64,000 nt of DNA, taken from positions 558,001-622,000 of the forward strand of contig NZ_CP028924.1 of assembly GCF_003061515.1 (NCBI RefSeq), written 5' to 3'. Position numbers and translations under genes: made by a program. Every line of letters begins with the position of its first letter. Position 1 is the first letter of the stretch. Below are positions 44,467 through 63,968 of this stretch, one piece after another. The stretch comes from Colwellia sp. Arc7-D (GTDB taxonomy: Bacteria > Pseudomonadota > Gammaproteobacteria > Enterobacterales > Alteromonadaceae). Below the pieces are notes generated by a model that worked only from the letters and a program-made list of their open reading frames with translations, was not told the DNA's origin and did no database searches.

Positions 44467-44609
44467 CTAAGACACTTTATTTTATGATAAAGGTGAATTA
44501 AATGACGCTAGTCATCAAATAACGATGATTAATAAATCGATTTTTTGAAAATATTGCTTTGAGATCGAGACATAAACCCAATTAAACTTTATAAATTTAG
44601 GAGTAAACC

Positions 44610-44948: not shown

Positions 44949-45032
44949 GTCAACTTACTTAGTAGCTTAGCGTCTATGTCAGTATCCTGACGCTAAGTGA
45001 CTTTTGAAACCTCAGTTCTTGAAGGGAATAGT

Positions 45033-48488: not shown

Positions 48489-48827
48489 TTAATTATATTT
48501 CTCGTTATATTGCAACAAGGTATTTTCCATCAACGACAATATAATATTGTCTGAGGCCGCTAAGGGATTATTCAATATAGTGAGCTGATCATTTATCTGT
48601 GTTGCTTTTGCTGATAGTGGCATGGCGCCATATAAGGCAGCTGAATTTTTAATAATATGGGTAATATCAGCAATGGCGTTGCTATCTAGGCCATTAAAAG
48701 CCTTCACTAATTTTAAGTGTAGATCAGTCATCTCGTCAATAAACAGCTTGATCAAGCGTAAACAGGTCTCTTCGCCTAAATCGGCAGTCATCTGTTTAAT
48801 AACGCTTTGATCCATTAAATCTGTCAT
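48489..48827 (-). CDS. LuxU-like histidine phosphotransfer (Hpt) protein
   Basis: 112 residues, all helical, about the size of LuxU. The phosphoacceptor is H57 in THIIKNSAALYGA, which resembles the LuxU site HALKSSAASFGA more than the common HxLKG form. Hpt proteins pass phosphate from the receiver of a hybrid kinase to a response regulator. It starts 19 bases upstream of the LuxO-like gene, the luxO/luxU pairing in the reverse order. The hybrid kinase at the other end of the locus ends in a receiver and has no Hpt of its own, so this protein is its likely partner. Confidence 0.85.
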   Translation of the reverse strand: MTDLMDQSVIKQMTADLGEETCLRLIKLFIDEMTDLHLKLVKAFNGLDSNAIADITHIIKNSAALYGAMPLSAKATQINDQLTILNNPLAASDNIILSLMENTLLQYNEKYN

Positions 48828-48920
48828 TTACTTCTCCAGTGGTGATGCAACTGAGTGCACTTTAGACACTATTGCAAAATGCTATGTAATACGCAAATAT
48901 CTTCAGCGAATTAATCGCTA

Positions 48921-49748: not shown

Positions 49749-49787
49749 TTTGAAGTGTCCGATTATTGTTTAAGTATCACTACTAAC

Positions 49788-49802
49788 GCAATTGATAGGC
49801 CA
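49788..49802 (-). promoter_or_regulatory. Sigma-54 promoter of the EAL-Hpt-LuxO-like operon
   Basis: Minus-strand TGGCCTATCAATTGC: GG and GC elements with exact 10-base spacing and TTGC at -12. Predicted start near 49776, 28 bases before the EAL start codon. Confidence 0.8.
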
Positions 49803-49897
49803 CAAAATTAAATTAATTTACAATTAACTTAACTTGTTGTTTATTAAGTAAAATAAAGTCCTGCTTTTTCTGGGAGTATGTTGCCTTTAATGACTAT

Positions 49898-49942
49898 TCG
49901 CAAAATGCAAAGCAAAATAGAAAGTGTATGTGCAAAATGCAA
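49898..49942. promoter_or_regulatory. Pair of LuxO-type activator sites upstream of the EAL operon
   Basis: TCGCAAAATGCAA (49898-49910) and GTGCAAAATGCAA (49930-49942), each one mismatch from the palindrome TTGCAWWWTGCAA. Centres are 32 bp apart, about three helical turns, at about -128 and -160 from the predicted start. Right beside them lies an 8-7-8 inverted repeat (ATTCACCT / AGGTGAAT, 49942-49964) of unknown use. Confidence 0.78.
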
Positions 49943-49989
49943 TTCACCTTGTTCACAGGTGAATGCGCTTGAGAAATAGTTAAACGAAT

Positions 49990-50025
49990 AAAGCAACATC
50001 GAGATAAATTTTTCGATGTTGCTTT
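49990..50025 (-). terminator. Terminator of the pilus operon
   Basis: Thirteen-pair stem (AAAGCAACATCGA and complement) with a 10-base loop, 34 bases after the last pilus gene, followed by TTTATT on the minus strand. Confidence 0.8.
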
Positions 50026-50058
50026 ATAAACTAAGGTCTTTAAGTGAAGAGGTAAGGG

Positions 50059-51120
50059 TTAATTATTACCTTCGCCAGTAGGTGGGGTTGGATACCATTC
50101 ATCACCTTCGGTTCTCCCTCCTGCGGCAGGTAAATTAATTTGAAAAGGTGGTGTAAAAGACTGTAATGCATTTTGTCCTGGATTATTAATATCTTCGACC
50201 GATTGCGCCTTACGTAAACCTAAGCCTGAGCACAATGCGCCGCCACCTGTCGCTGATGTGTAATCAGTACCGTTGGGGCAACATTGATCGGCTAGACCCA
50301 AAAAGCTCCCCGATACTTCATAGTATCCTGCTGGACAAGCACACTGGCCTTTATCGTTCGTACCACAGCCAGCATCACAGATACCAGTCTTTCCACCTAA
50401 GCCATTACCATTATTGTTACTTGCTGGGGCACAAGACATTGGAGCTTCACCCGCAGGGACCGGTAAATCAAACGGTGATTCACAAGGCTCTCCCGTGACC
50501 ACTTTTTGTGACATATAACGCGAGCCAACTGGAGAGCCGGTACCACCGACTAATTCAGGCAATTCACAGGCTTGAATAGTTTCACGAAACAAGTGACCGG
50601 GTAAACCATTTGGTGAGCGACCAATGGCATAATTAGGCGCACCTTGAAGGGCTTGGAAATAGCTTACCGCCCCGGTACCGGGCAATCGGCTCACACCAAC
50701 GTCATCCATTGCTTCGTTACTCACTGGTTTGATACAAGGGTCGCCTTGGCAGTTTAATTCAGTGTAGTAAATGGCTTCTCGACTGGTAAATCTGTCGTCG
50801 CGTACACCAATTAACGCACGATAATTTTGCTCTGGCTCCGTTGATGTGCGATCGATATAGAATAGTTGTGGTGCATCATGTTCATCTAAAGTCACCATTT
50901 CGCCCAATACCACACCGTTATCGTCAGCGACTATAATGGTATTGTCGAGCTGTTGTACTTTTTGTTTAAATAAGGCGTCACGAACAGCCACTATACCAAC
51001 AAAGCTACCGATCACTAAAATTGTAACCAGCAAAATCAGCTCAATGGTTAAGACATAACCTTGCTGTAATTTTTTATTTTGCCTCGCCGTAAAGTGACTA
51101 CCTAACGTAAACTTATTCAT
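50059..51120 (-). CDS. Large pilin-like protein with cysteine-rich C-terminal region (TadE/F/G position)
   Basis: 353 residues. A prepilin-type N-terminus, KLQQG then YVLTIELILLVTILVIG, closely parallels the Flp pilins of this locus (QGGFVMTSELLLL) and shares their Glu at +6. Then follows a long extracellular part with about twelve cysteines, including an EGF-like run CDAGCGTNDKGQCACP. Last gene of the pilus operon, where Tad loci usually encode minor pilins (TadE/F/G). I infer a minor pilin, possibly a tip adhesin stabilised by disulfides. No von Willebrand domain as in TadG is visible. Family assignment beyond the pilin N-terminus is not possible from sequence alone. Confidence 0.75.
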   Translation of the reverse strand: MNKFTLGSHFTARQNKKLQQGYVLTIELILLVTILVIGSFVGIVAVRDALFKQKVQQLDNTIIVADDNGVVLGEMVTLDEHDAPQLFYIDRTSTEPEQNYRALIGVRDDRFTSREAIYYTELNCQGDPCIKPVSNEAMDDVGVSRLPGTGAVSYFQALQGAPNYAIGRSPNGLPGHLFRETIQACELPELVGGTGSPVGSRYMSQKVVTGEPCESPFDLPVPAGEAPMSCAPASNNNGNGLGGKTGICDAGCGTNDKGQCACPAGYYEVSGSFLGLADQCCPNGTDYTSATGGGALCSGLGLRKAQSVEDINNPGQNALQSFTPPFQINLPAAGGRTEGDEWYPTPPTGEGNN

Positions 51121-51171
51121 ATTGCTCCCTCATTTAATCCATTTATGTACGGTTTCGAAGTAATGCAGCCG

Positions 51172-51987
51172 TTATAGTATCTCTCCAAGTAATGACATTA
51201 TCTCGCTAATTTGCTGTCCAGCAGGAAAAAATACCAAGACAAAAAACATTGGAAAACACACCATTGCCATTGGCAAGGTTGACTCTAGCGCCTTGCGATT
51301 TATTCTACTGGTCAGCTGCTGCTCTTGTTGTAAGCGTAGAAAATCGGCAAGTGACTGTAATCCATCACTAACTGGGCTGCCAACATTAACACCGGCCTTA
51401 ATGATCACTGCCAATTTATTTAATGAGTCAACTCCGGTTCTGTTTGATAGTTGATCAAATGCTTCGGCTCTGTCTCTACCTGCATCTAACTCATAAGCAA
51501 TTAACTCTAGTTCGGCAGCCAATGGGTTGTTTTTATGAAGACCAAATTGACCTGCTTTACGAAAAGCATTACTCAGTGACAAACCTGATTTAAGAAAGAC
51601 AATGAGTAAGTTTGTAAAAAATACTAATGAAAGTTTTATCTGGTTACGTCGAGCGTTACGCTTTAGCAACAAGCTGATATCCAGTAGAAAAAAAGCTAAT
51701 ACAGCTCCACAGCTAACTAGTAGAGAGCTATTAAAAAACTCAAGCAATAAAAAGCTGATAACTGCAACACTGCCCCATTTCACTGCCCAATACCATAACC
51801 AATAACGAGCAGATGGTATACCACATTGACGAACTAGTTTATCTGGATATATAAGGTATTGCTTTTTTTTATGGGTAAAAGGTTCTTCAATTAAGCTTTT
51901 TTCTTGCTTAAGAACTTGCACTAATAGGTATAGTGATAAACACAGCATTAACAGAAAAATAATATCAATGGTACTAAACATATTCAT
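51172..51987 (-). CDS. tadC: TadC-like inner-membrane platform protein (T2SSF domain)
   Basis: 271 residues from the ATG that overlaps the tadB stop (ATGA) and has GAGG upstream; an earlier in-frame ATG lies inside tadB. Membrane helices at about 7-25 and 65-105, then the T2SSF cytoplasmic domain (KSGLSLSNAFRKAGQFG, LNKLAVIIKAGVNVGSPVSDGLQSLADFLR), and a final helix pair near LPMAMVCFPMFFVLVFF. With TadB it forms the inner-membrane platform of the Tad machine. Fifth-from-last part of one continuous operon. Confidence 0.9.
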   Translation of the reverse strand: MNMFSTIDIIFLLMLCLSLYLLVQVLKQEKSLIEEPFTHKKKQYLIYPDKLVRQCGIPSARYWLWYWAVKWGSVAVISFLLLEFFNSSLLVSCGAVLAFFLLDISLLLKRNARRNQIKLSLVFFTNLLIVFLKSGLSLSNAFRKAGQFGLHKNNPLAAELELIAYELDAGRDRAEAFDQLSNRTGVDSLNKLAVIIKAGVNVGSPVSDGLQSLADFLRLQQEQQLTSRINRKALESTLPMAMVCFPMFFVLVFFPAGQQISEIMSLLGEIL

Positions 51988-52856
51988 TGTTCTATCCTCG
52001 CAATACGGCGTAACCATAAATAGCCACTAAATTGTAAAAATAACGCCCCGCCTAAATAAGTAGGCCCAGAGGGGTGTTGTAATAAAGCGTCAAACCAACC
52101 CGGTTGTTGCCATAATAATATAGGGATCAATATGTAAGGTAATACACCACATAACATAGCAGCATAACGAGTGCCCGATAAGTGAGTGTCTATTTGTATT
52201 TGGTGACGTTGGCGATCTCTGATGATCTGATTCACCGAATTTAGCATAAAAGTTAAATCACTCCCCGATTGATACCGGGCGATAACGACTTGCGCAAACA
52301 AACGTGTAGCGACACAATTATACTTTGTTGTTAAGCGCACAACGGCTGTTTCTGGGCTACACCCCATATCTAATCTATCCAGCATTTCGGTTAACTCTAA
52401 TTTAACTTGGCCTTTACTGGATTGTGCCGCCATAAGAATCGCTTGATGTTGAGATTGCCCACTACTTAATGCTGCCTTCATCATATCTAGAGCTTCAGCT
52501 AAATCTTTTTCAATCTTTTTTATCTTTCGTTTAGCCGCATCACTAATACTATTAAAACAAAATACTATAGCAGCCATCGCGGCAATACTTGCCACAGGTA
52601 GGTGACCAGGAAATACCTCTAATAGCAGCATGAATATAGTTGTTGCAATAAGCGCTATACCAATAACAACTGACCAAACGGGTAAGTTAAGGTTAAGCGT
52701 TTTTAACCAACCTGCTAAGGTAGAGGGAACTTTTGCGTTAACTTCTGAGCTTGCTGACTCTTCCTTACGGTGAGATCTTTTACGCCACCAAGTCAACACA
52801 ATAAAAGACATAACTGATGAGCAAAGGCTTAAGGCAATTAATTCAACATTTAACAT
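51984..52856 (-). CDS. tadB: TadB-like inner-membrane platform protein (T2SSF domain)
   Basis: 290 residues: an N-terminal helix, a helix pair near 60-105, the T2SSF domain (DLAEALDMMKAALSSGQSQHQAILMAA, TRLFAQVVIARYQSGSDLTFMLNSV) and a C-terminal pair of helices. It overlaps cpaF by 7 bases and tadC by 4, so translation of all three is coupled. The heterodimer of TadB and TadC couples the CpaF ATPase to pilin polymerisation. Confidence 0.9.
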   Translation of the reverse strand: MLNVELIALSLCSSVMSFIVLTWWRKRSHRKEESASSEVNAKVPSTLAGWLKTLNLNLPVWSVVIGIALIATTIFMLLLEVFPGHLPVASIAAMAAIVFCFNSISDAAKRKIKKIEKDLAEALDMMKAALSSGQSQHQAILMAAQSSKGQVKLELTEMLDRLDMGCSPETAVVRLTTKYNCVATRLFAQVVIARYQSGSDLTFMLNSVNQIIRDRQRHQIQIDTHLSGTRYAAMLCGVLPYILIPILLWQQPGWFDALLQHPSGPTYLGGALFLQFSGYLWLRRIARIEQ

Positions 52857-54181
52857 AAGTAATCTGCCGTCAATAAAGCATCGAACAAGTCACCGGTGTA
52901 GCCTTTAGCCTCTACTTTAGCGGCTAACTCGGTTTGTTGACCTAGGCTGATATGGCGACCACTGATTGTATCTAATGCGCTATCGTTATCATGACGAAAA
53001 GTAAATAATTCACGAATTTCGTTTTTATCATCATGGCGAACTAACTCACTGATACTAACAATGCGTCGGCTACCATCACGAAAGCGCATTACTTGTACGA
53101 TTAACTGTACTGATGCTGCAATCATCTGCCGAATAGCATCTCGCGAAAAACCACGTTCGCCCATTAAGGCTAAGGTTTCCATGCGGCTAATGACATCTTT
53201 GGGGCTGTTTGCATGTAAGGTAGTAAGACTACCGTCATGCCCAACATTCATAGCTTGTAGCATGTCTAGTACCTCAATACCTCGTACTTCACCAACAACT
53301 ATTCTATCGGCTCGCATACGCAGTGCGTTTCTTACTAGGTCACTTAAGGTTACTGCACCAAAACCTTCACTGTTTACGTGACGAGATTCTAATGGGATAA
53401 CATGAGGATGGTTTAGTTGTAATTCTGCGGTTTCTTCAACTGTAACAATACGTTCACTGACGGGAATGAAACCAGAAATTACATTAAGTAAGGTGGTTTT
53501 ACCTGCACCTGCGCTGCCTGCAATAACGATGTTGATCCCTGAAGCTACTGAAAGCTCTAAAAAATCTAGCATTGTTTGACTTAAAAAGCCTTTGTCTACT
53601 AATTGATCGGCGGTTAGCTTTTCAGAGTGAAAACGTCGAATAGAGACAATGGGACCGGTTTCACACAACGGCGGGATAATGGCATGTAAACGACTGCCAT
53701 CAGGTAACCTGGCATCCACCATCGGTTGTCGAGCATCTAACTGGCGTCCTTGAGCTCCAATAATACGATCTAAAAATAGACGTAAATGACTTTCATTATC
53801 AAACTGTAAGTCAGTGCGAGTCAAACGGCCATTTTTATCTACCCAGATTTCATCTGGACCATTAATTAGAATATCGGTAATACCAGCTTCACTCATCAGA
53901 CCTGAAATAGGTCCCATGCCGGTTAATTCTTGCATAATTTCTTGGCGTAAAAGGCTTATCTCGTCCAAGCTTAGTGCTGGTTCTAGTTTTGGGCGAATGT
54001 CTGTCAATAACTCATCAAGACGGTTTGCTAATCGTTGAGGATCTTTTAATAGATGAATACCTTCTTCTTCCATTCCATCAATAAGACGATTATGCAGAAA
54101 ACGACGTAGCTCTCGCAAGCGGCTAGTGTCTATTTCAGTTGTGTTTGTTGTGGTAAAATTTAATGTCTTTGACGATAACAT
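52850..54181 (-). CDS. cpaF: CpaF/TadA-type pilus assembly ATPase
   Basis: 443 residues, full family length. Walker A GSAGAGKTT at 222-230, Asp box VTVEETAEL near 246-254, the RHVNSEGFGAVTLSDLVRNALR stretch and Walker B region DRIVVGEVRG, and the His box TLHANSP. It is a hexameric secretion ATPase powering pilus extension (and retraction in some Tad systems) at the cytoplasmic face. Starts 31 bases after cpaB copy 1. Only one assembly ATPase is seen in the locus. Confidence 0.95.
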   Translation of the reverse strand: MLSSKTLNFTTTNTTEIDTSRLRELRRFLHNRLIDGMEEEGIHLLKDPQRLANRLDELLTDIRPKLEPALSLDEISLLRQEIMQELTGMGPISGLMSEAGITDILINGPDEIWVDKNGRLTRTDLQFDNESHLRLFLDRIIGAQGRQLDARQPMVDARLPDGSRLHAIIPPLCETGPIVSIRRFHSEKLTADQLVDKGFLSQTMLDFLELSVASGINIVIAGSAGAGKTTLLNVISGFIPVSERIVTVEETAELQLNHPHVIPLESRHVNSEGFGAVTLSDLVRNALRMRADRIVVGEVRGIEVLDMLQAMNVGHDGSLTTLHANSPKDVISRMETLALMGERGFSRDAIRQMIAASVQLIVQVMRFRDGSRRIVSISELVRHDDKNEIRELFTFRHDNDSALDTISGRHISLGQQTELAAKVEAKGYTGDLFDALLTADYLC

Positions 54182-54212
54182 GATTTATCTCCCTTCTCTG
54201 GTTAGTACCAAC

Positions 54213-54974
54213 TTAATTAAACACTCTTACGCTTGAACGTTGAACACCGGCGACCATTTCTACTTGGCGAAAGCGTTGTTTTGGATCAATATTTTGCTGA
54301 GTACCTTGCGCCAGATCGTATGCACTGTGAAAAATCATCGATACACGGTCGCTGGCACTGATGCTAGCTAGGGGATATACATCGGAAGGGCGAACCGCCA
54401 CAACTAATGATATACCTGCTTGGCTTTGTGCTTGTTTATTTTTAGGCATCAACATATTTTTCAGCCCATTGGCCTCTGCTTTTACTGCTGCAGGATGATT
54501 AATGCCGATGAGTTGTACGTCACGCGCTACTGTTCTAACACCGTTACGGCTTTTAACGATAACATCGAAGCGGTCACCGTCGCCTAATTGTCCATAAGGC
54601 AAACCTTTTTGTAAGTGGTCTAAGGTATACAGTACTCGTCCTGGTGGGATCGCATGAGATAATGATTTTTTTTCTGGTTGCTTTAAATCACGAGCAAACA
54701 CGGCACTACCACCAGATTTATTTACCTGTAAGGTTTTCCCCATCAATTGTCGAGGATTTTGAATAGTGCCATCAATGGCATCTTGGTCTATGCGCTGTTG
54801 TTTAAGAAATTCGGGTGTAATCACTTGACCGGCAGACATGTCAGCACTGATGGTCCAGGCCATATCAGTACTCAATTTGTCATACTGACGAACGCCGAGT
54901 GCTGAGGCTAACATACCTGATACAGTGAAAAGGAGCATGGCGCCAGTTGCGCCACCTGTGAACGTACTTTTCAT
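54213..54974 (-). CDS. cpaB: CpaB/RcpC-type pilus assembly protein, copy 1
   Basis: 253 residues, identical in sequence to copy 2. An N-terminal hydrophobic helix exports or anchors it; the SAF domain follows (MAWTISADMSAGQVITPEFL at about 38-57, then LMGKTLQVNKSGGSAVFARDL); the RcpC/CpaB C-terminal region runs from DRFDVIVKSRNGVRTVA to the end. CpaB works in the periplasm with the secretin, probably bridging it to the inner parts. This copy stands directly before cpaF, so it is the one inside the main assembly operon. Confidence 0.92.
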   Translation of the reverse strand: MKSTFTGGATGAMLLFTVSGMLASALGVRQYDKLSTDMAWTISADMSAGQVITPEFLKQQRIDQDAIDGTIQNPRQLMGKTLQVNKSGGSAVFARDLKQPEKKSLSHAIPPGRVLYTLDHLQKGLPYGQLGDGDRFDVIVKSRNGVRTVARDVQLIGINHPAAVKAEANGLKNMLMPKNKQAQSQAGISLVVAVRPSDVYPLASISASDRVSMIFHSAYDLAQGTQQNIDPKQRFRQVEMVAGVQRSSVRVFN

Positions 54975-55056
54975 ATATCACCTCATTAGTTAGTTAAAAG
55001 TAGACGCTTAAGACGGAAACAACTTTTGTGCGACTCCGTCTATAAGCGATGTCTCA

Positions 55057-55446
55057 TTAGTTTTTCAGGCTACCCACATTACTAGATGAGTTAGCACCAG
55101 CACTTGGCGTGCCACTGATAGCAGACGCCGACTCAGAAAAGTCAGTATTAATGAATTCAAATGTCGCACCGTCACCAGCATTTGTATCTACGGCATCAAT
55201 AAAGCCAGAGCCACTAATTTCAGCAGTACCTTCTGCGTTTTTAATACCATCGTAAGCATAACTTTGGTCGAGTGAGCCAATAGCTTCAGCGACATCTTCC
55301 ATTTCAGCCGTTACGGCATCACGCATGGTAGTTAAACCGACAACTAAGCCAATAACGATAGTAGTGGATAACAGTAATAACTCTGATGTCATCACAAATC
55401 CGCCTTGCTTCTTTTTCATTGCTTGCTTGTTTTTAATAAATTTCAT
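55057..55446 (-). CDS. flp: Flp-like major pilin, copy 1
   Basis: 129 residues: a short basic leader ending KKKQGG, then FVMTSELLLLSTTIVIGLVVGLTT (prepilin helix), then a Gly/Ser/Asp-rich extracellular half unlike short Flp pilins, which are about 60-80 residues. Cleavage is expected after GG, leaving F at +1 and Glu at +6 (most type IV and Flp pilins have Glu at +5). Protein identical to copy 2. Ribosome site GAGGTAAT. Driven by its own sigma-54 promoter; cpaB follows 82 bases later, then cpaF. Confidence 0.88.
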   Translation of the reverse strand: MKFIKNKQAMKKKQGGFVMTSELLLLSTTIVIGLVVGLTTMRDAVTAEMEDVAEAIGSLDQSYAYDGIKNAEGTAEISGSGFIDAVDTNAGDGATFEFINTDFSESASAISGTPSAGANSSSNVGSLKN

Positions 55447-55523
55447 AATTATTACCTCGGGTGATTTTAATTAGTTGTTTAGTACACTCACCAATTAATG
55501 TGGTTGAGCTTGTACTAGATAAT

Positions 55524-55538
55524 GCTAGGGCTGTGCCA
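55524..55538 (-). promoter_or_regulatory. Sigma-54 promoter of flp-1
   Basis: Minus-strand TGGCACAGCCCTAGC: full TGGCAC at -24, exact spacing, GC at -12. Predicted start near 55512, with a 66-nt leader. The 367-base gap to the SAF gene holds this promoter and its activator site. Confidence 0.85.
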
Positions 55539-55655
55539 AATGTAAGTTAAAACTCAGTAAATAATTAAAAACTCATATAAAACAGAGTGATAAAATATTT
55601 TTATTGTTTTTTATGTCATTGAGTATGACGAAGATGTTGGGCATAAATAGATTCT

Positions 55656-55674
55656 GATTTGCATTTTGCAAATC
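55656..55674. promoter_or_regulatory. LuxO-type activator site upstream of flp-1
   Basis: Perfect palindrome GATTTGCA-TTT-TGCAAATC containing the exact TTGCAWWWTGCAA pattern, centred about 153 bp upstream of the predicted flp-1 transcription start. Confidence 0.85.
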
Positions 55675-55813
55675 ACTTTCAATACAATTGTTTATATTTT
55701 CAAAATGAGAGTGATAACGTATTATTTGAGATTAATAAAGTTAAAAGCTAGTGACACGAACAAGGAAGGTGCTTGGATTGGACAATAATAAGTTATCAGT
55801 TTTTTTAATGCAT

Positions 55814-56131
55814 TTACCTTGTAATCGTTTCGAACATAACAACCTCATTAAGATAAATCGTACTACCCGCTGGTTTATATACAGTAAGTGTTTGACCAAT
55901 CAGTTTGTCATGACTTTGGATTGAACCATATATTTTCTTGGGTTTAATGTAAGCTTCAGTCAATAAATCAGCCGTAATAGTTTGGCCTGCGGCTAGCTCG
56001 GCTTTCGTTACCCAAGCTGAAACCATAAATAATTGCTCCATTTTTTTCAGAACAATATCTGAAGTGAATAATGGTAAACAAATAAATAATACCATTACGC
56101 TACAACTGCTAACTTTTATAAATTTTTTCAT
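55814..56131 (-). CDS. SAF-only CpaB-like exported protein
   Basis: 105 residues: hydrophobic N-terminus, then a SAF domain that aligns with the first third of CpaB (AWVTKAELAAGQTITADLLTEAYI against AWTISADMSAGQVITPEFL; LIGQTLTVYKPAGSTIYL against LMGKTLQVNKSGGSAVFA). The RcpC half is absent. It is well diverged from the full CpaB, so it is an old truncated paralogue rather than a by-product of the recent duplication, though it lies between the two copies. It may bind the pilus or the secretin on its own, or be decaying. No sigma-54 promoter was found for it. Confidence 0.7.
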   Translation of the reverse strand: MKKFIKVSSCSVMVLFICLPLFTSDIVLKKMEQLFMVSAWVTKAELAAGQTITADLLTEAYIKPKKIYGSIQSHDKLIGQTLTVYKPAGSTIYLNEVVMFETITR

Positions 56132-56364
56132 ATGTTACCTCGTTGAATGTATAGCTAAACTATTTATGCGCTGAGCATGCTTTCTTTGAGCTAATTGTGA
56201 ATATAGGTAAATAATATTTTAAATTGATTGAGTGTTAATTTTAACGTTTGTGAGTAAGTTACAAAGCTTGTGTCACTTGATATGTTTAAAAGTTATGTTT
56301 AAAAGTTATGGGTAAAGCTAGTGCAATGGTTTATCATTGTCTTATGTGAGCTAAGTTCTTAACT

Positions 56365-56400
56365 AAAAAAGCCCGGAACAATAAATAAACTGGCCAGGGC
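56365..56400 (-). terminator. Terminator after cpaB copy 2
   Basis: Minus-strand GCCC(T)GG / CCGGGC stem with a long loop followed by six T residues, plus a small CTCTGG / CCAGAG hairpin just before it (56406-56423). It would end the flp-2/cpaB-2 transcript before the SAF gene. The rest of the 322-base gap shows nothing else. Confidence 0.65.
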
Positions 56401-56453
56401 AAAGGCTCTGGAGAGCACCAGAGAGTTACATTTATTAGCTATATAATATGAAC

Positions 56454-57215
56454 TTAATTAAACACTCTTACGCTTGAACGTTGAACACCGGCGACCATTT
56501 CTACTTGGCGAAAACGCTGTTTTGGATCAATATTTTGCTGAGTACCTTGCGCCAGATCGTATGCACTGTGAAAAATCATCGATACACGGTCGCTGGCACT
56601 GATGCTAGCTAGGGGATATACATCGGAAGGGCGAACCGCCACAACTAATGATATACCTGCTTGGCTTTGTGCTTGTTTATTTTTAGGCATCAACATATTT
56701 TTCAGCCCATTGGCCTCTGCTTTTACTGCTGCAGGATGATTAATGCCGATGAGTTGTACGTCACGCGCTACTGTTCTAACACCGTTACGGCTTTTAACGA
56801 TAACATCGAAGCGGTCACCGTCGCCTAATTGTCCATAAGGCAAACCTTTTTGTAAGTGGTCTAAGGTATACAGTACTCGTCCTGGTGGGATCGCATGAGA
56901 TAATGATTTTTTTTCTGGTTGCTTTAAATCACGAGCAAACACGGCACTACCACCAGATTTATTTACCTGTAAGGTTTTCCCCATCAATTGTCGAGGATTT
57001 TGAATAGTGCCATCAATGGCATCTTGGTCTATGCGCTGTTGTTTAAGAAATTCGGGTGTAATCACTTGACCGGCAGACATGTCAGCACTGATGGTCCAGG
57101 CCATATCAGTACTCAATTTGTCATACTGACGAACGCCGAGTGCTGAGGCTAACATACCTGATACAGTGAAAAGGAGCATGGCGCCAGTTGCGCCACCTGT
57201 GAACGTACTTTTCAT
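56454..57215 (-). CDS. cpaB: CpaB/RcpC-type pilus assembly protein, copy 2
   Basis: 253 residues with no amino-acid difference from copy 1; two silent base changes only. Domain layout as in copy 1: membrane helix, SAF domain, RcpC C-terminal region. It is followed by a terminator rather than by cpaF, so this copy forms a two-gene unit with flp-2, adding pilin and CpaB dosage without more ATPase. Whether both copies are expressed is unknown. Confidence 0.92.
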   Translation of the reverse strand: MKSTFTGGATGAMLLFTVSGMLASALGVRQYDKLSTDMAWTISADMSAGQVITPEFLKQQRIDQDAIDGTIQNPRQLMGKTLQVNKSGGSAVFARDLKQPEKKSLSHAIPPGRVLYTLDHLQKGLPYGQLGDGDRFDVIVKSRNGVRTVARDVQLIGINHPAAVKAEANGLKNMLMPKNKQAQSQAGISLVVAVRPSDVYPLASISASDRVSMIFHSAYDLAQGTQQNIDPKQRFRQVEMVAGVQRSSVRVFN

Positions 57216-57297
57216 ATATCACCTCATTAGTTAGTTAAAAGTAGACGCTTAAGACGGAAACAACTTTTGTGCGACTCCGTCTATAAGCGATGTCTCA

Positions 57298-57687
57298 TTA
57301 GTTTTTCAGGCTACCCACATTACTAGATGAGTTAGCACCAGCACTTGGCGTGCCACTGATAGCAGACGCCGACTCAGAAAAGTCAGTATTAATGAATTCA
57401 AATGTCGCACCGTCACCAGCATTCGTATCTACGGCATCAATAAAGCCAGAGCCACTAATTTCAGCAGTACCTTCTGCGTTTTTAATACCATCGTAAGCAT
57501 AACTTTGGTCGAGTGAGCCAATAGCTTCAGCGACATCTTCCATTTCAGCCGTTACAGCATCACGCATGGTAGTTAAACCGACAACTAAGCCAATAACGAT
57601 AGTAGTGGATAACAGTAATAACTCTGATGTCATCACAAATCCGCCTTGCTTCTTTTTCATTGCTTGCTTGTTTTTAATAAATTTCAT
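57298..57687 (-). CDS. flp: Flp-like major pilin, copy 2
   Basis: 129 residues, protein identical to copy 1 with two silent base changes. Leader KKKQGG, prepilin helix starting FVMTSELLLL, acidic Gly/Ser-rich surface part. It is expressed from a second sigma-54 promoter with an identical activator site, so the same relay should switch on both pilin genes. It lies between tadD and the SAF gene. Confidence 0.88.
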   Translation of the reverse strand: MKFIKNKQAMKKKQGGFVMTSELLLLSTTIVIGLVVGLTTMRDAVTAEMEDVAEAIGSLDQSYAYDGIKNAEGTAEISGSGFIDAVDTNAGDGATFEFINTDFSESASAISGTPSAGANSSSNVGSLKN

Positions 57688-57764
57688 AATTATTACCTCG
57701 GGTTATTTTAATTAGTTGTTTAGTACACTCACCAACTAATGTGGTTGAGCTTGTACTAGATAAT

Positions 57765-57779
57765 GCGAGGTCTGTGCCA
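57765..57779 (-). promoter_or_regulatory. Sigma-54 promoter of flp-2
   Basis: Minus-strand TGGCACAGACCTCGC, same position and spacing as in copy 1 but with two base changes in the -12 half, which may change its strength. Predicted start near 57753. Confidence 0.83.
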
Positions 57780-57896
57780 AATGTAAGTTAAAACTCAGTA
57801 AATAATTAAAAACTCATATAAAACAGAGTGATAAAATATTTTTATTGTTTTTTATGTCATTGAGTATGACGAAGATATTGGGTGTAAATAGATTCT

Positions 57897-57915
57897 GATT
57901 TGCATTTTGCAAATC
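57897..57915. promoter_or_regulatory. LuxO-type activator site upstream of flp-2
   Basis: The same 19-bp palindrome as upstream of flp-1, unchanged although nearby bases differ between the copies; centre about 153 bp before the predicted start. Confidence 0.85.
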
Positions 57916-58000
57916 ACTTTCAATACGATTGTTTATATTTTATTTAACACCTAAGCCATGGTGAAGTATTGGTGTGGCTCAATGTTTTGATAGCAAATAA

Positions 58001-58037
58001 AAAAGCCGTGTTGTTGATGAGTCAACAGCACGGCTTT
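58001..58037 (-). terminator. Terminator of the secretin-tadD operon
   Basis: Long stem (AAGCCGTG plus TGTTGA and complements, one bulge) with a short loop; the minus strand ends in TTTTTTATTT, 18 bases after the tadD stop. Confidence 0.88.
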
Positions 58038-58054
58038 GTAACCAGAAACTAAAC

Positions 58055-58954
58055 TTAAAGTTGAGTGAATACAGGATAATTCGAATTTACATAACAATCT
58101 ACATGTTCATCTAACAACCTGATCTTGGCATTTATTACTCGGTTATTTGGTTGTTCTTTTAAGATTTGTTTATATTCTTTACATGCTTTATACCATTGTT
58201 CCTGTGCCTCATAAATGATGCCTCGATGATGAGCGATACGCCAATTCGGCTTCATAAAACGTTCAGCAATTTTGACTGACTGTAGGGCGTCAGTATATTT
58301 TCCTTCCATATAATAATAAGACGCTTGCATTTCATATAGGTAAGGATGATCTGGTGTAATGTTCAGTTGTTTATTTATCACTGAACGTGCCAATGTCAGG
58401 TTTCCTTCTTCCATCGCAATGCGACTACGTAATATAGCTGCCTCAGGATATGCACCACGCTTAGAAAGTAAGCTGTCGAGCAATTGTTGGCTACTGGCTG
58501 TGTTACCGAGTTCGAACTCTAGTAAAGCAGCGGCCATCATAATACGCTTACTATTAGGGTACTTTATATGCAGTCCATTTAACTCTGAAGCCAATCTATA
58601 ACAGTCTACAACCGGTTTTGCTCTATCGTGACAATTTAAATTAAGTACTAATGCCGGTTCTGGTGCTTGTGATAATTGCACATTTTGCTGACAGCTTTTT
58701 AATGTTTTACGTTGAATACCACAAACATTATTTCGCTCTGCAACGTGAGTTGATTTCAAATTACACACTGAAACCTCTCGTTGTTCTAGTTCACATGGAG
58801 GCTTAATAGGAGCAACTTTAGCATAGCGAAATAATACTTCATCAAGTTGTTCATTTGGCGCATATACCTGGCTAGAGTTTGAATTTGTTGCACAACCTGA
58901 ACTTAATAAGGTAGCGACAAAAGCACTGATAATTACTAGGGAATTGTTATTCAT
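58055..58954 (-). CDS. tadD: TadD-like TPR lipoprotein
   Basis: 299 residues from the ATG with AGGAG upstream; it overlaps the secretin gene's end by 8 bases, and an earlier in-frame ATG lies deeper in that gene. Lipoprotein signal with lipobox LSSGC. The middle has several paired cysteines, and the C-terminal half has TPR repeats (ASYYYMEGKYTDALQSVKIAERF, AHHRGIIYEAQEQWYKACKEYKQIL). TadD-type lipoproteins act like pilotins, helping the secretin reach or assemble in the outer membrane. Confidence 0.85.
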   Translation of the reverse strand: MNNNSLVIISAFVATLLSSGCATNSNSSQVYAPNEQLDEVLFRYAKVAPIKPPCELEQREVSVCNLKSTHVAERNNVCGIQRKTLKSCQQNVQLSQAPEPALVLNLNCHDRAKPVVDCYRLASELNGLHIKYPNSKRIMMAAALLEFELGNTASSQQLLDSLLSKRGAYPEAAILRSRIAMEEGNLTLARSVINKQLNITPDHPYLYEMQASYYYMEGKYTDALQSVKIAERFMKPNWRIAHHRGIIYEAQEQWYKACKEYKQILKEQPNNRVINAKIRLLDEHVDCYVNSNYPVFTQL

Positions 58955-60896
58955 TTTCTGACTCCTCTTGACTGTACTTAAATGCATGGTTGTTGTTAAA
59001 TACGGCTTGTTGCATTAAATCTTCTGAATTTGGGAACTGCCATCTATTCACGTCGTGGACTAATTCTCTAACTATGGTTGGCGTAACAACGATAAATAAT
59101 TCACGTTCGTTATCAGCTTCTGAGGTTGACTCAGTAAACTTGCCCAATAAAGGCACTTTGCTTACGCCGGGAACAAAATCTCTATTATCATTAATATCTC
59201 GGCTTACTAACCCGCCAATTACCATTGGTTGCCCATCACGTAAGCGTGTAGAAGTGCTGATACTTCTAACATTGAATGCTGAGGTATTTAAGCCACTACC
59301 GGTACTTGATGAAATTTCTTGGGTTAGCAGCGTATCGGGTGTTGAAATCGTAGGATTAAGATCCAGCGTAATGCGATCATGCTCATCAACCATGGCTCTA
59401 ACTTGTAACTGAACACCGAAAGACTTAAAGGTAGTGCCGCTAAATACGCCTGCAGTATTAGCACCTACCTGGTCACCACTTACAATACCACTTGGTGCAA
59501 AGGCTGTTGGTACGGGTACTTCACCACCCGCTGAAAATACTGCCGACTCACCGGCTAATACGGTAAGTGTTGGTCTTGATAACGTTCTTGATATACCGTC
59601 TTGTTCTAATAATGAAAATAGTAAGTCAAAAGCAAAATCTTTTGCGCCAACTTGTAAATTATTAACGAGTGCGCCTCCTAATACTTGTAAGGCATTATCA
59701 ACTTTTGTCGCTGTACCCGCGTTTGCGCCTTCAAGTCCAAAGTTTCCGCCTGTTTTATCATAACCATTACTCAGCACCGAAAAATCTGGACGCCATTGTT
59801 TAAGGCGGCGATGATTAACTTCGTACATTTGCACCGACACTCGCACTAAAGGTAAATCCTTAACTTCGATTACCGATAGTAATTTACCACCCGCTACAGA
59901 TAACAATTTTGCTCGACCAATATTTGATGCAATATTATTGTCTGTGCTTCCTGAACTACCACTGTTTAAACCACCAAGACCACCGGAAGGAGCCGACTTT
60001 TTATTATTTATTAATCCACCAGATTCATTGGCTAAAATTGAAATGATCGCTTTTTTAGCTTTTTCACTGTTCTCACCAGTGACTAAACGAGAAGCAACAG
60101 TTAATACTCGTACGAGCTCTACCTGATTGTCGACATAACCTTTTAATAACAAGGTATCTTGTTTTGCATCTGGAATATCACCATGTTGAACACGGGTAAC
60201 CGTTACCGACTCTCCACCGACTAAATCAATGGTGTTTTTTACCCGAGTAACAATATCTTCAGGTAAAGTTTCTACTGAGATCAGGTTAATAATAGCGGCG
60301 CGTTTGTTACTTTTTCCTAGCAAAGGTTGCACGTCTTGATTTTGCATACGGAAATTATTGACTAAGCTTGCTAACGCCGATGGCTGCATTAAAACATTGT
60401 CATTGTTGCCACCTTGTCCTGCTTCAAAATAATTGCGGGCAGCGGCTTCTGCAGCAATACGATACTTTATGGTTGGTACTTGACCACGTAACACTAACGC
60501 ATCGCGATCAGGTGCTAAGGTCAAGGTAATGTTCGGATGGATATCTTTAATGGCGTGATGCAATACACTCAAATCTGACGTTACAGTAAATAAAAATGTT
60601 TCAGAAGTATTATCTGAATACCAAACCATAACACTCGTACGGCCAACTTTTTTAGCTAGGGCTAAAGCTTCATTTTTACTTAGCACCTCAACTTGTAAGG
60701 TTTCTTCTTGGCCTACAGCAATACGCTCTAATGGTTTATTAAAAACTAGACGTGTGTGAGTCCATTGTACAAGCTCTCGGGTATGTTTTGATTTTATACT
60801 GTCTGCTGTTTCGACAAAATCAAGTCCATCAGCCATCACCGGCGAATTTAATAATATCCACATCAGGGTGATTAGGGATAACGTTAACTTTTTCAT
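58947..60896 (-). CDS. cpaC: CpaC/RcpA-type outer-membrane secretin
   Basis: 649 residues. Signal peptide ending near PVMADG, an N-terminal domain with ERIAVGQEETLQVEVLSKNEALALAKK (pilus-secretin N domain), BON-like segments (TLTLAPDRDALVLRGQVPT; DTLLLKGYVDN), a Gly/Ser-rich insert, then the secretin domain starting VRVSVQMYEVNHRRLKQW and ending GLVSRDINDNRDFVPGVSKVPLLGKF, the family signature. It forms the outer-membrane channel for the pilus. About 100-150 residues longer than typical CpaC because of the inserts. Ribosome site GGAGAG; sigma-54 promoter upstream. Confidence 0.9.
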   Translation of the reverse strand: MKKLTLSLITLMWILLNSPVMADGLDFVETADSIKSKHTRELVQWTHTRLVFNKPLERIAVGQEETLQVEVLSKNEALALAKKVGRTSVMVWYSDNTSETFLFTVTSDLSVLHHAIKDIHPNITLTLAPDRDALVLRGQVPTIKYRIAAEAAARNYFEAGQGGNNDNVLMQPSALASLVNNFRMQNQDVQPLLGKSNKRAAIINLISVETLPEDIVTRVKNTIDLVGGESVTVTRVQHGDIPDAKQDTLLLKGYVDNQVELVRVLTVASRLVTGENSEKAKKAIISILANESGGLINNKKSAPSGGLGGLNSGSSGSTDNNIASNIGRAKLLSVAGGKLLSVIEVKDLPLVRVSVQMYEVNHRRLKQWRPDFSVLSNGYDKTGGNFGLEGANAGTATKVDNALQVLGGALVNNLQVGAKDFAFDLLFSLLEQDGISRTLSRPTLTVLAGESAVFSAGGEVPVPTAFAPSGIVSGDQVGANTAGVFSGTTFKSFGVQLQVRAMVDEHDRITLDLNPTISTPDTLLTQEISSSTGSGLNTSAFNVRSISTSTRLRDGQPMVIGGLVSRDINDNRDFVPGVSKVPLLGKFTESTSEADNERELFIVVTPTIVRELVHDVNRWQFPNSEDLMQQAVFNNNHAFKYSQEESENE

Positions 60897-60967
60897 GCTG
60901 CTCTCCAGTTTTATGCGTATTCAGAAGTCTTTTAATAGCTTCTTGAATAACGGGTACTGGGTATATC

Positions 60968-60982
60968 GCAACATTCAGACCA
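60968..60982 (-). promoter_or_regulatory. Sigma-54 promoter of the secretin operon
   Basis: Minus-strand TGGTCTGAATGTTGC: GG-N10-GC with TTGC at -12, -24 half less perfect. Predicted start near 60956, with a 60-nt leader before the secretin. Confidence 0.75.
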
Positions 60983-61058
60983 TTCATTACCAACTTATTT
61001 AACGTTGTTTATAATCATTATTAAACAAGGGGTTATGAAATTAATTTTTTTGGAAAGA

Positions 61059-61086
61059 TTATAGTCTGGCTTAAGCCAGACTATAA
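61059..61086. repeat. 28-bp perfect palindrome, possible terminator of the hybrid kinase gene
   Basis: TTATAGTCTGGCTT joined to its exact complement, between the kinase stop and the secretin promoter. The minus-strand T tract after it is interrupted, so termination is plausible but not certain. Confidence 0.55.
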
Positions 61087-61110
61087 AGCAGGATTAATTA
61101 TTAAATTGAC

Positions 61111-61123
61111 TTGCATTTTGCAA
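61111..61123. promoter_or_regulatory. LuxO-type activator site upstream of the secretin operon
   Basis: Exact TTGCATTTTGCAA, centred about 161 bp before the predicted start. An adjacent AACGC / GCGTT inverted repeat (61122-61136) overlaps its edge. Confidence 0.85.
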
Positions 61124-61139: not shown

Positions 61140-63968
61140 TTAAGTCAGGTTGTTATTGATTAAATTCTGCATGTTGTTGAGGCGGGTAATTTTACTGGTG
61201 ATTCGACTTTTCTTTTTCTCAATTGGCATATGCTTATCTAGTAAAGCGTAGAGCTCATTGCGAAATATGGGTTTGGATAAATAATCATTCATGCCGGCAC
61301 TTAAGTACTTTTCTTTATCACCATAGACCGCATCTGCTGTAACCGCAATAATCGGTACTTGTTGAAAAGCTAAGGTACTAGCTCTTATATGACGCGTAGT
61401 GGTTAAGCCGTCCATGACTGGCATCTGAATATCCATCAGAACGATATCAATTTGTTCGGTTTGTAACTTTTTCAGCGCCTCCACACCGTGATCAGCCAAT
61501 ATTACTCGACAGCCGCAGAGCTGCAAAAATTGTTGCATAACAATTTGGTTTTGCTGATTGTCTTCGACGACTAAAACATTAGCATTATGAAATTGAATGT
61601 CATTCAATGATGTTGTGCTTTTTTTACCACTTAACTCAATGCTAGCTTTTCCCATAAGCTCATGTAATTGCTCAAGGATACGGTTAAAGTGAGATGCTTT
61701 AACGGGTCCATTTACTAATATTTCGTTACTACCAATGACTTGAATACTATTACTTTTTCCTAAGGGATCCAAAGTAACTAAGCAAGGGAGGGTACCCGTG
61801 ATGAAAGTGTCCTGTAGAGTTTGTCGACATGCAGTGTTGAGTGTAACATCTGTAACTATGATAAAGTCTTCCCCTATACCTTTAATATTAGGTATTTGAT
61901 CAATACTATCAAGCTCTTCATACTTAACTTTATAACGTTCAAGCACTTGCCCAATTGCATGATTTAACCGTGGAGATTTTCCAATAATCCAGACGGTACT
62001 GTCTCTATTATCAGGAAGGTGTTTAAACATATATCTAGGGCGGGTCAGGTCGGTATCTACAGGCATTTGTACGCGAAAAGTACTGCCAACGTCGAGTGTT
62101 GATTTAACACTAATATGACCGCCAGCGGCCTCACATATTTGATGACATATTGCTAAACCAAGGCCACTGCCTCCATACTGGCGAGTGGTGGAAATATCTG
62201 ATTGCATGAAAGGTATAAATAACTGTGAAACTTTATCTTCAGCTATGCCAATACCGCTATCTTCAACTGATATATCCAAAATAAGGGTGCTCTCTTTGTT
62301 TCGATGACAATCAACCTGGATAAAAACATACCCTTTTGCCGTGAACTTAATCGCATTAGCTAGTAGGTTAATCATAACCTGACGAAGGCGCACATTGTCA
62401 CCTATGATACTTAATGGCGTATTCGCACTGATCTCTAAAACTAATTCTATATTCTTCGATAAAGCAATTTCAGAAACAATGTCAATTGCCTCATCAATAC
62501 AGACGCCCAGATTAAATTCTCGGCTTTCTAATGTAACAGCACCAGCATCGAATCTTGAATAGGTTAGCACGTCGTCTAAAATACTCAGCAAAGCACTACC
62601 GCTGGATTGAATCATGCCTGCGAAACGTTCTTGCTCTTGGTTTAATCCGGTATTTTGTAATATTTCACTCCCACCAATCATCGCGTTAAGCGGAGTACGT
62701 ATTTCATGACTGATGTTGGCGAGAAAGCGGCTTCGATCTTCAGCTAGACCTTCAGCTAGGTGTTTTGCTTTTTGTAATTCTTGTGCTGCAAAAACCCTAT
62801 CATCAACGTTGACGATAGTAGTCGCTATAGCGGTTAATTGACCTTTACCGTAATACTCTACAGGGGTCATGCTCATTTCTACCCATGTATTACTGCCATC
62901 TCCACATTCCATTTGCAATTCTAAGCGACAGCTTTTTCGATTACCTTGATGAAAACCTACTAATGCTTGAGCGACTTCTGCTTGATTGGCCTCACTGATA
63001 AATTGGCTAATATCGACACCTAAGCATTGATTTTCATGTAGCTTAACTAACTCACTCCAAGCGTGATTCATAAATAAAATACGGCCATCTGGCTGTAACC
63101 GTAAGACAACCTCACTGATGTTGTCGACCACCATACGGTAATTACTTTCTGCTTCTAAGGCGACTTTCTCAGCTTGAACTCGTGGACTAATGTCTGATTC
63201 TATGGCAATAAAATGCTTTATTTCACCGTTGTCATCTTTTACTGGAGATGCTTCAATAGAAACCCAATAAGGTTGGCCAGCTTTGTTATAGTTGATAACT
63301 TCTACGCTAAACCCTTGTTTGTTCTTAGTCGCCTCAGACATTTCTTTAATTATTGCAGGATCGCTTTGTTCACCTTGTAAAAGGGAACCAGGTTTGCGTC
63401 CATGGACCTCTTCTTTACTATACCCTGTGATGCGTTCAAAACTGCTATTTACCCATTCGATGCAACCGGCACCATCAGTAATAATAACCATATTCTTAGT
63501 GTGGCTAGCAACCAAAGATAATTTACGGGTTTCTTCTTCTTTTTGACGTAGCTTTGCTTCCATTTCTTTATGATTCTGAATATCAAATAGTGATCCAATC
63601 ATTTCTTGGTTATCACTTTTAACTATCCGTAACTCGAACCATCTGAGTACATAATTTGAAGTTAAAAGTTGTAATTCAGTGCGCTGTGGAAAGTTATTGG
63701 TGGTTTGATTTATGGCTAGCCATTGTTGTAGATCAAATTTAGGTAAAAATTGGCTTAGAGGACGACCAATAAGTTGCTCAGCTTGATAACCAAGCTGACG
63801 CGTCCATGCTGAGTTAACGTAAGTTAAAATAAGATCGCTGGAACACTCAAAGACACACTCATCCAGTAATGATAGTAATTTACTTTGTTTTTGCTGACTA
63901 GTAGAAAGCTTTTCTATTAGCGCATATTGAATTTGTGTTTGTAATTCGTCTTTGCTGTTGTTACTCAA
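61140..63968 (-). CDS. Soluble hybrid histidine kinase with three PAS domains and a C-terminal receiver
   Basis: 942 residues from a TTG start with AAGGA eight bases upstream. No membrane helix. Three PAS domains (about 30-140, 145-270, 275-395), histidine kinase core with H-box LANISHEIRTPLNAMIGG (about 415-435) and ATPase boxes NLLANAIKFTAKG and GSGLGLAICHQI, then a degenerate receiver-like segment (about 665-775) and a true receiver (VVEDNQQNQIV, IVLMDIQMPVMDG). No Hpt domain. The second PAS reads GRKPGSLLQGEQSDP, like LOV domains but without their cysteine. A cytoplasmic signal (redox, small ligand) is expected. Likely source of phosphate for the LuxU-like protein of this locus. Confidence 0.87.
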   Translation of the reverse strand: MSNNSKDELQTQIQYALIEKLSTSQQKQSKLLSLLDECVFECSSDLILTYVNSAWTRQLGYQAEQLIGRPLSQFLPKFDLQQWLAINQTTNNFPQRTELQLLTSNYVLRWFELRIVKSDNQEMIGSLFDIQNHKEMEAKLRQKEEETRKLSLVASHTKNMVIITDGAGCIEWVNSSFERITGYSKEEVHGRKPGSLLQGEQSDPAIIKEMSEATKNKQGFSVEVINYNKAGQPYWVSIEASPVKDDNGEIKHFIAIESDISPRVQAEKVALEAESNYRMVVDNISEVVLRLQPDGRILFMNHAWSELVKLHENQCLGVDISQFISEANQAEVAQALVGFHQGNRKSCRLELQMECGDGSNTWVEMSMTPVEYYGKGQLTAIATTIVNVDDRVFAAQELQKAKHLAEGLAEDRSRFLANISHEIRTPLNAMIGGSEILQNTGLNQEQERFAGMIQSSGSALLSILDDVLTYSRFDAGAVTLESREFNLGVCIDEAIDIVSEIALSKNIELVLEISANTPLSIIGDNVRLRQVMINLLANAIKFTAKGYVFIQVDCHRNKESTLILDISVEDSGIGIAEDKVSQLFIPFMQSDISTTRQYGGSGLGLAICHQICEAAGGHISVKSTLDVGSTFRVQMPVDTDLTRPRYMFKHLPDNRDSTVWIIGKSPRLNHAIGQVLERYKVKYEELDSIDQIPNIKGIGEDFIIVTDVTLNTACRQTLQDTFITGTLPCLVTLDPLGKSNSIQVIGSNEILVNGPVKASHFNRILEQLHELMGKASIELSGKKSTTSLNDIQFHNANVLVVEDNQQNQIVMQQFLQLCGCRVILADHGVEALKKLQTEQIDIVLMDIQMPVMDGLTTTRHIRASTLAFQQVPIIAVTADAVYGDKEKYLSAGMNDYLSKPIFRNELYALLDKHMPIEKKKSRITSKITRLNNMQNLINNNLT

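Follow-up and report, generated by a model that had tools for sequence, protein, structure and literature searches.

Can a LuxO-type response regulator switch on a pilus directly, through sigma-54 promoters of structural operons and with no Qrr RNA in between? The question is raised by a locus of Colwellia sp. Arc7-D in which genes for a divergent Tad-type pilus lie next to an EAL-luxU-luxO gene group, within a stretch of 64,000 nucleotides of contig NZ_CP028924.1 (positions 558,001 to 622,000), referred to here as the window. An earlier reading of the letters alone, the sequence-only reading, had proposed that a LuxO homologue activates the pilus genes and its own operon there without Qrr RNAs. 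The analysis reported here indicates that the locus is probably a self-contained LuxO-type/sigma-54 regulon for this pilus, its regulator acting directly and without Qrr. The strength of this case is carried by the clustering of operator-like boxes, their pairing with sigma-54-like elements and their conservation in relatives, not by the number of boxes in the window.

Boxes and sigma-54-like promoters

The box is the 13-bp palindrome TTGCAWWWTGCAA, of which the whole 4,305,442-base genome contains three exact copies, all inside the locus. The sequence-only reading had listed these three (55659, 57900 and 61111) together with two one-mismatch copies (49898 and 49930), and all five are present, however the list was incomplete, as a sixth box with one mismatch is located between the EAL gene and the luxU-like gene (Table 1). 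Not all five sites are independent. A block of 1,491 bp that holds only box, promoter, flp and cpaB is duplicated (54210-55700 and 56451-57941; 99.2% identity, 12 mismatches), so that two of the three exact copies stem from this duplication and the two flp boxes represent one event in this genome. When one mismatch is allowed, the genome has 44 sites, of which 37 lie elsewhere; six are in the window locus and a seventh is 1.8 kb past the window's right edge. The sites are clustered, with a 26-kb stretch holding seven of the 44 (six with the duplicate merged) against 0.23 expected.

The four minus-strand promoters with GG-N10-GC spacing that had been described before the EAL operon, both flp copies and the secretin operon are present, and the box centres do lie 128-161 bp upstream of the starts, taking the start to be 26 bp downstream of the sigma-54 element. 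By an approximate sigma-54 matrix, these promoters, in the order flp1, flp2, EAL and secretin, rank 3rd, 4th, 7th and 21st on the minus strand of the window. The distances in Table 1 are measured from box start to sigma-54 start, and the same spacing spans 97-154 bp across this locus and its counterparts in three relatives. Five pairs of box and sigma-54 element were found in the window, compared with a mean of 0.25 (maximum 3) in 20 Markov sequences; the pairs were counted at distances of 85-180 bp, which would leave out two of the three qrr1 controls, whose box lies at 73-76 bp. The 44 genome sites were rescanned at 60-180 bp, and a sigma-54 element scoring 9 or more goes with six of the seven sites of the extended locus versus three of the 37 others (Fisher 8e-5, or 3e-4 with the duplicate merged); at a cut-off of 8, five of the 37 sites elsewhere are paired. 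A single rpoN gene is present in the genome.

Conservation in relatives and extent of the proposed regulon

The CpaB-like protein of the locus is rare, occurring in three of 295 genomes of the order and in one of 369 genomes of the class sample, the window's own. A search of 84,980 species genomes with two CpaB-like peptide patterns, which reach close relatives only, gave three named loci, in Psychromonas sp. SP041, Shewanella saliphila and S. ulleungensis; because the two Shewanella are closely related, the independent lineages number three. The Psychromonas locus matches the order of the pilus and EAL-luxU-luxO genes seen here, and its secretin is 81% identical (63% in both Shewanella). In Shewanella, the EAL-luxU-luxO genes are upstream of the secretin, not downstream of the pilus genes. 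Comparison of these syntenic loci favours the sequence-only reading, as box and sigma-54 site are kept at flp, secretin and EAL in all three named loci despite the rearranged order. Boxes with at most one mismatch number six in Psychromonas and seven in each Shewanella, one of the latter seven being within the luxO coding sequence, against 0.43-0.47 expected. Pairs of box and sigma-54 element number five in Psychromonas sp. SP041 and seven in each Shewanella, against a Markov mean of 0 (20 sequences each). The distinct promoters are four in Colwellia, three in Psychromonas and five in each Shewanella, fewer than the pairs because some promoters have two boxes and because one pair in each Shewanella comes from reading the luxU palindrome in reverse, with a weak site. 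In alignments, the flp and EAL boxes with their sigma-54 elements, and the secretin box, are conserved islands in diverged intergenic DNA; MAFFT did not superpose the Shewanella secretin sigma-54 elements on the others, and it was the matrix that located them. The luxU gene of both Shewanella has an exact box with a sigma-54 site.

Two features of these sites may be recorded in their own right. The -12 element is TCGC, not TTGC, in the flp promoters of Colwellia flp1, Psychromonas sp. SP041 and both Shewanella, and TAGC in Colwellia flp2. Full extension of the box to TGATTTGCAWWWTGCAAATCA is seen in four of 25 boxes of the four loci and its TGAT half in nine of 25, which suggests a longer operator.

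Two further genomes, G138 and G076, are called Psychromonas here from a genus label shared with G266, whose contig matches Psychromonas sp. SP041. Both encode the EAL, LuxU-like, LuxO-like, PhnD-like and kinase proteins, however their secretins are all distant (25-28% identity) and CpaB has no match in either. The EAL box has one mismatch in G138 and two in G076, and a similar sigma-54 element goes with it in both. The module is thus kept there without this pilus, and can exist independently of it. In G138, the box and promoter of the EAL gene remain, while the gene itself is broken into two frames (L061 10026-10731). Both Shewanella also carry, after the Tad genes, an SCPU-domain gene with two boxes (one exact) and a sigma-54 site ahead of it (L007 3538-5589; L010 15770-20753). 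Next come a further small gene, a gene for a PapD-type chaperone and a frame that appears usher-like from its translation, so the Shewanella regulon may also cover a chaperone-usher-like pilus. Other LuxO-like regulators of the order have pairs of box and sigma-54 element near genes of REC or STAS type, judged from translations (L049 4380, L050 13133 and L052 1), hinting at further direct regulons.

The regulon had been placed within the Tad locus, and four of its promoters are in the window, however the promoter set reaches outside it. The presumed REC-isochorismatase-kinase operon that ends in the window's hybrid PAS kinase has its box (G000:C1:623775-623787) and promoter just beyond the edge. 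There, in the stretch L112, the REC protein has its own box and sigma-54 site, TGGAACGTTACTTGCA (13.8), and an isochorismatase-domain protein leads into the PAS kinase. L112 also encodes a kinase-like protein (from its translation), a third Flp-like pilin (9466-9750, plus strand) with sigma-54 site TGGCAGAATAATTGCA, a PhnD-like protein and a SypF-like HAMP-HK-REC-Hpt kinase. The predicted regulon would extend over about 26 kb, with five promoters that are well supported and two that are weaker.

The best reading of the pilus is a divergent Tad-type one, in which TadA, TadB/TadC, secretin and CpaB are recognised by domain or model, TadA and CpaB under the NCBIfam cut-offs. The Flp-like pilins, the third included, match no Pfam family at E<=5, the Flp/Fap domain among them, and the minor-pilin-like protein matches none at E<=0.001; structure predictions were too poor for use, with a mean predicted local distance difference test (pLDDT) score of 54.6 for the pilin and 37.1 for the minor pilin. 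No tadZ-, tadV- or tadEFG-like gene was found among the open reading frames (ORFs) of the locus that were scanned or read. An orphan SAF-domain ORF (55814-56131) lies between the two flp-cpaB copies, with 30% identity to the N-terminal part of CpaB, and multicopper-oxidase/copper-resistance-like genes with a cytochrome-like gene, recognised from translations, adjoin the locus at 41765-45566.

Table 1. Boxes, promoters and genes of the pilus locus, in positions of the window
Feature	Position	Strand	Remarks
LuxO-like response regulator, REC + sigma-54 AAA+ + Fis-type helix-turn-helix (HTH)	47036..48469	-	PF00072/PF00158/PF02954
LuxU-like Hpt phosphotransfer protein	48489..48827	-	PF01627; NF041948 LuxU E 7.5e-12, 45.6 bits, below cut-off 140
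Box, 1 mismatch, TAGCATTTTGCAA	48872..48884	.	upstream of luxU-like gene
EAL-domain protein, putative cyclic di-GMP (c-di-GMP) phosphodiesterase	48921..49748	-	PF00563 E 5.7e-72; first gene of presumed EAL-luxU-luxO operon
Sigma-54-like promoter TGGCCTATCAATTGCG (EAL operon)	49787..49802	-	GG-N10-GC; aligned with five relatives
LuxO-type box, 1 mismatch, TTGCATTTTGCGA	49898..49910	.	108 bp to EAL sigma-54 element; aligned with relatives
LuxO-type box, 1 mismatch, TTGCATTTTGCAC	49930..49942	.	140 bp to EAL sigma-54 element
Large minor-pilin-like protein, pilin-like N terminus, Cys-rich C-terminal part	50059..51120	-	from translation; conserved in four species
TadC-like T2SSF membrane protein	51172..52017	-	PF00482 E 8.7e-15
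TadB-like T2SSF membrane protein	51984..52856	-	PF00482 E 6.4e-10
TadA/CpaF-like ATPase	52850..54181	-	TIGR03819 337 bits, below cut-off 373.15
Duplicated block (box + promoter + flp + cpaB)	54210..55700	-	99.2% identical to 56451-57941
CpaB/RcpC-like protein, copy 2	54213..54974	-	TIGR03177 45 bits, below cut-off 71
Flp-like pilin, copy 2	55057..55446	-	no Pfam match
Sigma-54-like promoter TGGCACAGCCCTAGCA (flp2)	55523..55538	-	GG-N10-GC
LuxO-type box, exact	55659..55671	.	133 bp to flp2 sigma-54 element
CpaB-like protein, copy 1	56454..57215	-	same protein as copy 2
Flp-like pilin, copy 1	57298..57687	-	same protein as copy 2
Sigma-54-like promoter TGGCACAGACCTCGCA (flp1)	57764..57779	-	GG-N10-GC
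LuxO-type box, exact	57900..57912	.	133 bp to flp1 sigma-54 element
TPR protein, TadD-like role inferred	58055..58987	-	TPR families
Secretin (CpaC/RcpA-like)	58947..60896	-	PF00263, PF13629
Sigma-54-like promoter TGGTCTGAATGTTGCG (secretin operon)	60967..60982	-	GG-N10-GC; Psychromonas counterpart TGGTCTAAATGTTGCG
LuxO-type box, exact	61111..61123	.	141 bp to secretin sigma-54 element
Hybrid PAS histidine kinase with REC	61140..63968	-	last gene of presumed REC-isochorismatase-kinase operon

The regulator, its proposed relay and competing explanations

The LuxO-like response regulator is proposed as the master activator of the locus. Its best NCBIfam model is NF041946 LuxO at 594.9 bits, under the curated cut-off of 800 that is exceeded in 18 of 295 genomes of the order; its best PDB match is LuxO (5ep0) and its best paralogue in the genome is 38% identical. 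It shares 70-75% identity with five clade relatives and 43-50% with nine other LuxO/SypG-like rows. The tree was built from 40 rows, starting from 50 distinct rows (part of 104 matches) from which 11 near-duplicates were removed by hand and to which one outgroup was added. In it, the six regulators form their own clade (100/100) on a long stem, the LuxO rows form another (100/100), and three SypG-like second copies of presumed Vibrio form a clade of their own apart from the six. "Presumed Vibrio" denotes family label f21 together with a LuxO over the NCBIfam cut-off, and only one of the three SypG-like rows (L057-L059), L058, was checked for its surroundings, which from their translations read as a syp-type locus. 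All six clade members have SASTIYRK in the HTH, where 15 of the 18 LuxO rows that exceed the NCBIfam cut-off have SPSTIYRK; the recognition helix STIYRK is as in most LuxO rows, and the Walker motif ESGTGKE is present. The claim that a LuxO homologue drives the pilus genes and its own operon gains from the conserved boxes and sigma-54 sites in three lineages, the LuxU-like partner and rpoN, however the regulator is not LuxO proper.

In the proposed mechanism, hybrid kinases would pass phosphate via the LuxU-like Hpt protein to the regulator, the candidates being the window's PAS kinase and, outside the window, the PhnD-like periplasmic protein with the SypF-like kinase. The phosphorylated regulator would bind TTGCAWWWTGCAA palindromes some 95-155 bp upstream of sigma-54 elements and activate the REC/kinase operon, the secretin operon, the two flp-cpaB promoters, of which the second presumably reads on through tadABC and the minor pilin gene, and its own EAL-luxU-luxO operon. 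Activation of the latter would create positive feedback along with co-induction of a c-di-GMP phosphodiesterase. The regulator would act on these protein-coding operons directly, with Qrr RNA not involved. The scheme builds on what was observed of site positions, clustering, conservation, gene content and phylogeny; what it predicts is binding and activation, where the operons end, which way the phosphorelay runs, the signal and EAL activity.

Of the Qrr candidates scored in four genomes (150 of 605-674 in each), none gave an Rfam Qrr match at the gathering score; the best score in the Colwellia genome was 29.9 bits against a gathering score of 50. A presumed Vibrio control genome gave four Qrr over the gathering score, plus a 30.3-bit match below it. 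Rfam applied to 44-64 kb of the window returned four matches, all under the gathering score and none of them Qrr. As a positive control, Rfam finds qrr1 beside three presumed-Vibrio luxO genes (L042-L044); in all three, a TGGCAC-type element precedes the RNA by exactly 26 bp, with exact boxes another 73-107 bp up. The boxes of the pilus locus are on the whole farther from their sigma-54 element than these.

Several observations weigh against a direct LuxO-type regulon. The box count of the window is weak evidence by itself and only mildly unusual, as six boxes with at most one mismatch compare with 2.04 expected and one of 100 shuffles reached six; at up to two mismatches there is no excess (13 versus 19.6 expected). 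A scan 60-180 bp to both sides of the box at 48872 gave no sigma-54-like site (best score -1.7), and the luxU gene of Psychromonas sp. SP041 lacks a box. In the extended locus, the box of the third pilin has three mismatches and that of phnD two. A second-chromosome qrr control (L068, from the same genome as one qrr1 control) has a one-mismatch box only, 96 bp up. In all six clade regulators the GAFTGA loop, found in 40 of 50 rows, is replaced by GSFSGA (four) or GAFSGA (two), a Thr-to-Ser change, and full activity of the sigma-54 loop is thus assumed. The two top minus-strand matches of the sigma-54 matrix fall within coding sequence, that of flp1 and that of flp2, and lack a counterpart in Psychromonas; these matches, TGGCACGCCAAGTGCT at 57340-57355 and 55099-55114, may reflect chance or an internal cpaB promoter. 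Finally, a distant site, G000:C1:3626681 (L103, L113), pairs as well as the locus sites do, with a one-mismatch box 119 bp before TGGCAAGAACTATGCA (14.3). A qrr-like RNA was considered at this site; the stretch it points into gave no Rfam match, no terminator and no same-strand ORF of 60 amino acids.

It is quite possible, though less favoured, that a SypG-type regulator was recruited from a syp/scv-like polysaccharide locus, its likeness to LuxO/LuxU being incidental and its input a relay of PhnD and a SypF-like kinase in place of quorum sensing. This explanation shares direct control with a LuxO-type regulon and departs from it in origin and input, and it draws on the sensor side of the locus, which is as much like the SypF/SypG (syp) system as like quorum sensing. 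Of the 28 genomes of the order having a PhnD-like protein, 19 have a LuxO/SypG-like gene no more than 10 kb from it; in Colwellia the two are 22.7 kb apart, and eight genomes have no such gene on the contig. The PhnD/SypF-like kinase cassette adjoins luxO in L006, L061 and L062, and translations of L058 (presumed Vibrio) show SypA-B-C-D-like proteins, PhnD, a hybrid kinase and a SypG-like regulator in order; to these counterparts the SypF-like kinase of the extended locus is 35% identical and its PhnD-like protein 49%. Recruitment from such a locus fits less well with the separation of the six regulators from the three SypG-like rows, the stand-alone LuxU-like Hpt protein and the boxes, which match the LuxO consensus, whereas the SypG consensus is TTCTCANNNTGMDWN in the accessible portion of PMC10162802. 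The tree leaves the nearer kin of the clade, LuxO or SypG, undecided, its stem being long.

That the regulator binds the boxes, some of them as repressor or autoregulatory sites and not as activating enhancers, is unlikely. Such a role would suit the box at 48872, which is 44 bp before the luxU start and has no sigma-54 site, however the other five window boxes have a sigma-54 element (9.4-16.1) at an enhancer-like distance, and most intergenic boxes in the relatives are likewise paired. It is very improbable that the palindromes are hairpins or terminators of upstream genes; the flp boxes do extend to TGATTTGCAAAATGCAAATCA and were picked up by a terminator scan, however each stem has only three G-C pairs and is followed by GAATCTATTT, and the 13-bp core is common to boxes lacking the extension and is the LuxO word found at qrr genes by chromatin immunoprecipitation sequencing (ChIP-seq). 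Least credible is chance matching of a few palindromes and GG-N10-GC elements in an AT-rich locus, for although the shuffles and the many one-mismatch sites elsewhere leave room for it, it is at odds with the pairing statistics and with sites that are kept in three lineages whose operons are rearranged.

Relation to known LuxO, SypG and Tad systems

At a broader level, and with a little better than even confidence, the six regulators may represent a third branch of the LuxO/SypG family that serves as a direct switch for adhesive pili, Tad-type in three lineages and, in Shewanella, also SCPU chaperone-usher. This branch would receive input from a PhnD sensor and hybrid kinases via a LuxU-like protein, control itself along with a c-di-GMP phosphodiesterase, and employ no Qrr. 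Such an arrangement would tie the expression of pili to the turnover of c-di-GMP. It also points to the LuxO box with its relay as a portable module, not bound to small-RNA quorum sensing, that could drive surface-structure loci directly.

The Tad/Flp pilus loci share with this one a TadA-type ATPase, two T2SSF proteins, a CpaC-type secretin, a CpaB-like protein and a TPR protein, and differ from it in the pilins and in the tadZ, tadV and tadEFG genes, as described above. Among the open-access papers listed, subscription papers being outside the scope, no title or abstract opening concerned LuxO sites at a Tad locus or a sigma-54 activator dedicated to one. The tad operon of Aliivibrio salmonicida is likewise tied to quorum sensing, its expression changing in quorum-sensing mutants, however the control suggested there is by LitR-RpoQ, downstream of the relay, and LuxO sites at tad are unmentioned in the available part of that paper (PMC6499059). 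In a V. vulnificus transcriptome, tad and rpoN are mentioned side by side, unlinked in the portion available (PMC4260858). For a Tad pilus as cargo, no precedent was found within the literature covered, but the novelty is smaller than claimed because SypG and ScvE, LuxO-related sigma-54 regulators, already control local structural loci, so that the wiring is known in kind.

In V. fischeri, genetic evidence indicates that SypG activates four local syp operons and qrr1 via enhancer sites overlapping LuxO boxes, although its binding could not be shown biochemically, according to the accessible text of PMC10162802; ScvE, a SypG orthologue, controls scv in V. parahaemolyticus (PMC8941931, as far as available). 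These systems, with RbdG, resemble the present locus in having a LuxO-related sigma-54 activator, hybrid kinases upstream, and homologues of PhnD and the SypF-like kinase. They differ in cargo, polysaccharide there and a Tad-type pilus here, and the present locus has a LuxO-consensus box, a stand-alone Hpt protein and a regulator in another clade.

The LuxO-LuxU/qrr system of Vibrio is alike in its activator with REC, AAA+ and Fis-type HTH domains, its separate Hpt protein, its identical 13-bp box and a sigma-54 element about 75-155 bp from the box. ChIP-seq of V. cholerae LuxO gave five peaks, at qrr1-4 and one small one, in the part of PMC10328515 available. Here, unlike in that system, the proposed targets are structural and signalling operons in place of Qrr RNAs, the gene order is luxU-luxO and the regulator falls in a separate clade. 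LuxO with qrr, SypG with polysaccharide and the present clade with pili would then form a natural series in which to follow how one operator-activator family changed its targets.

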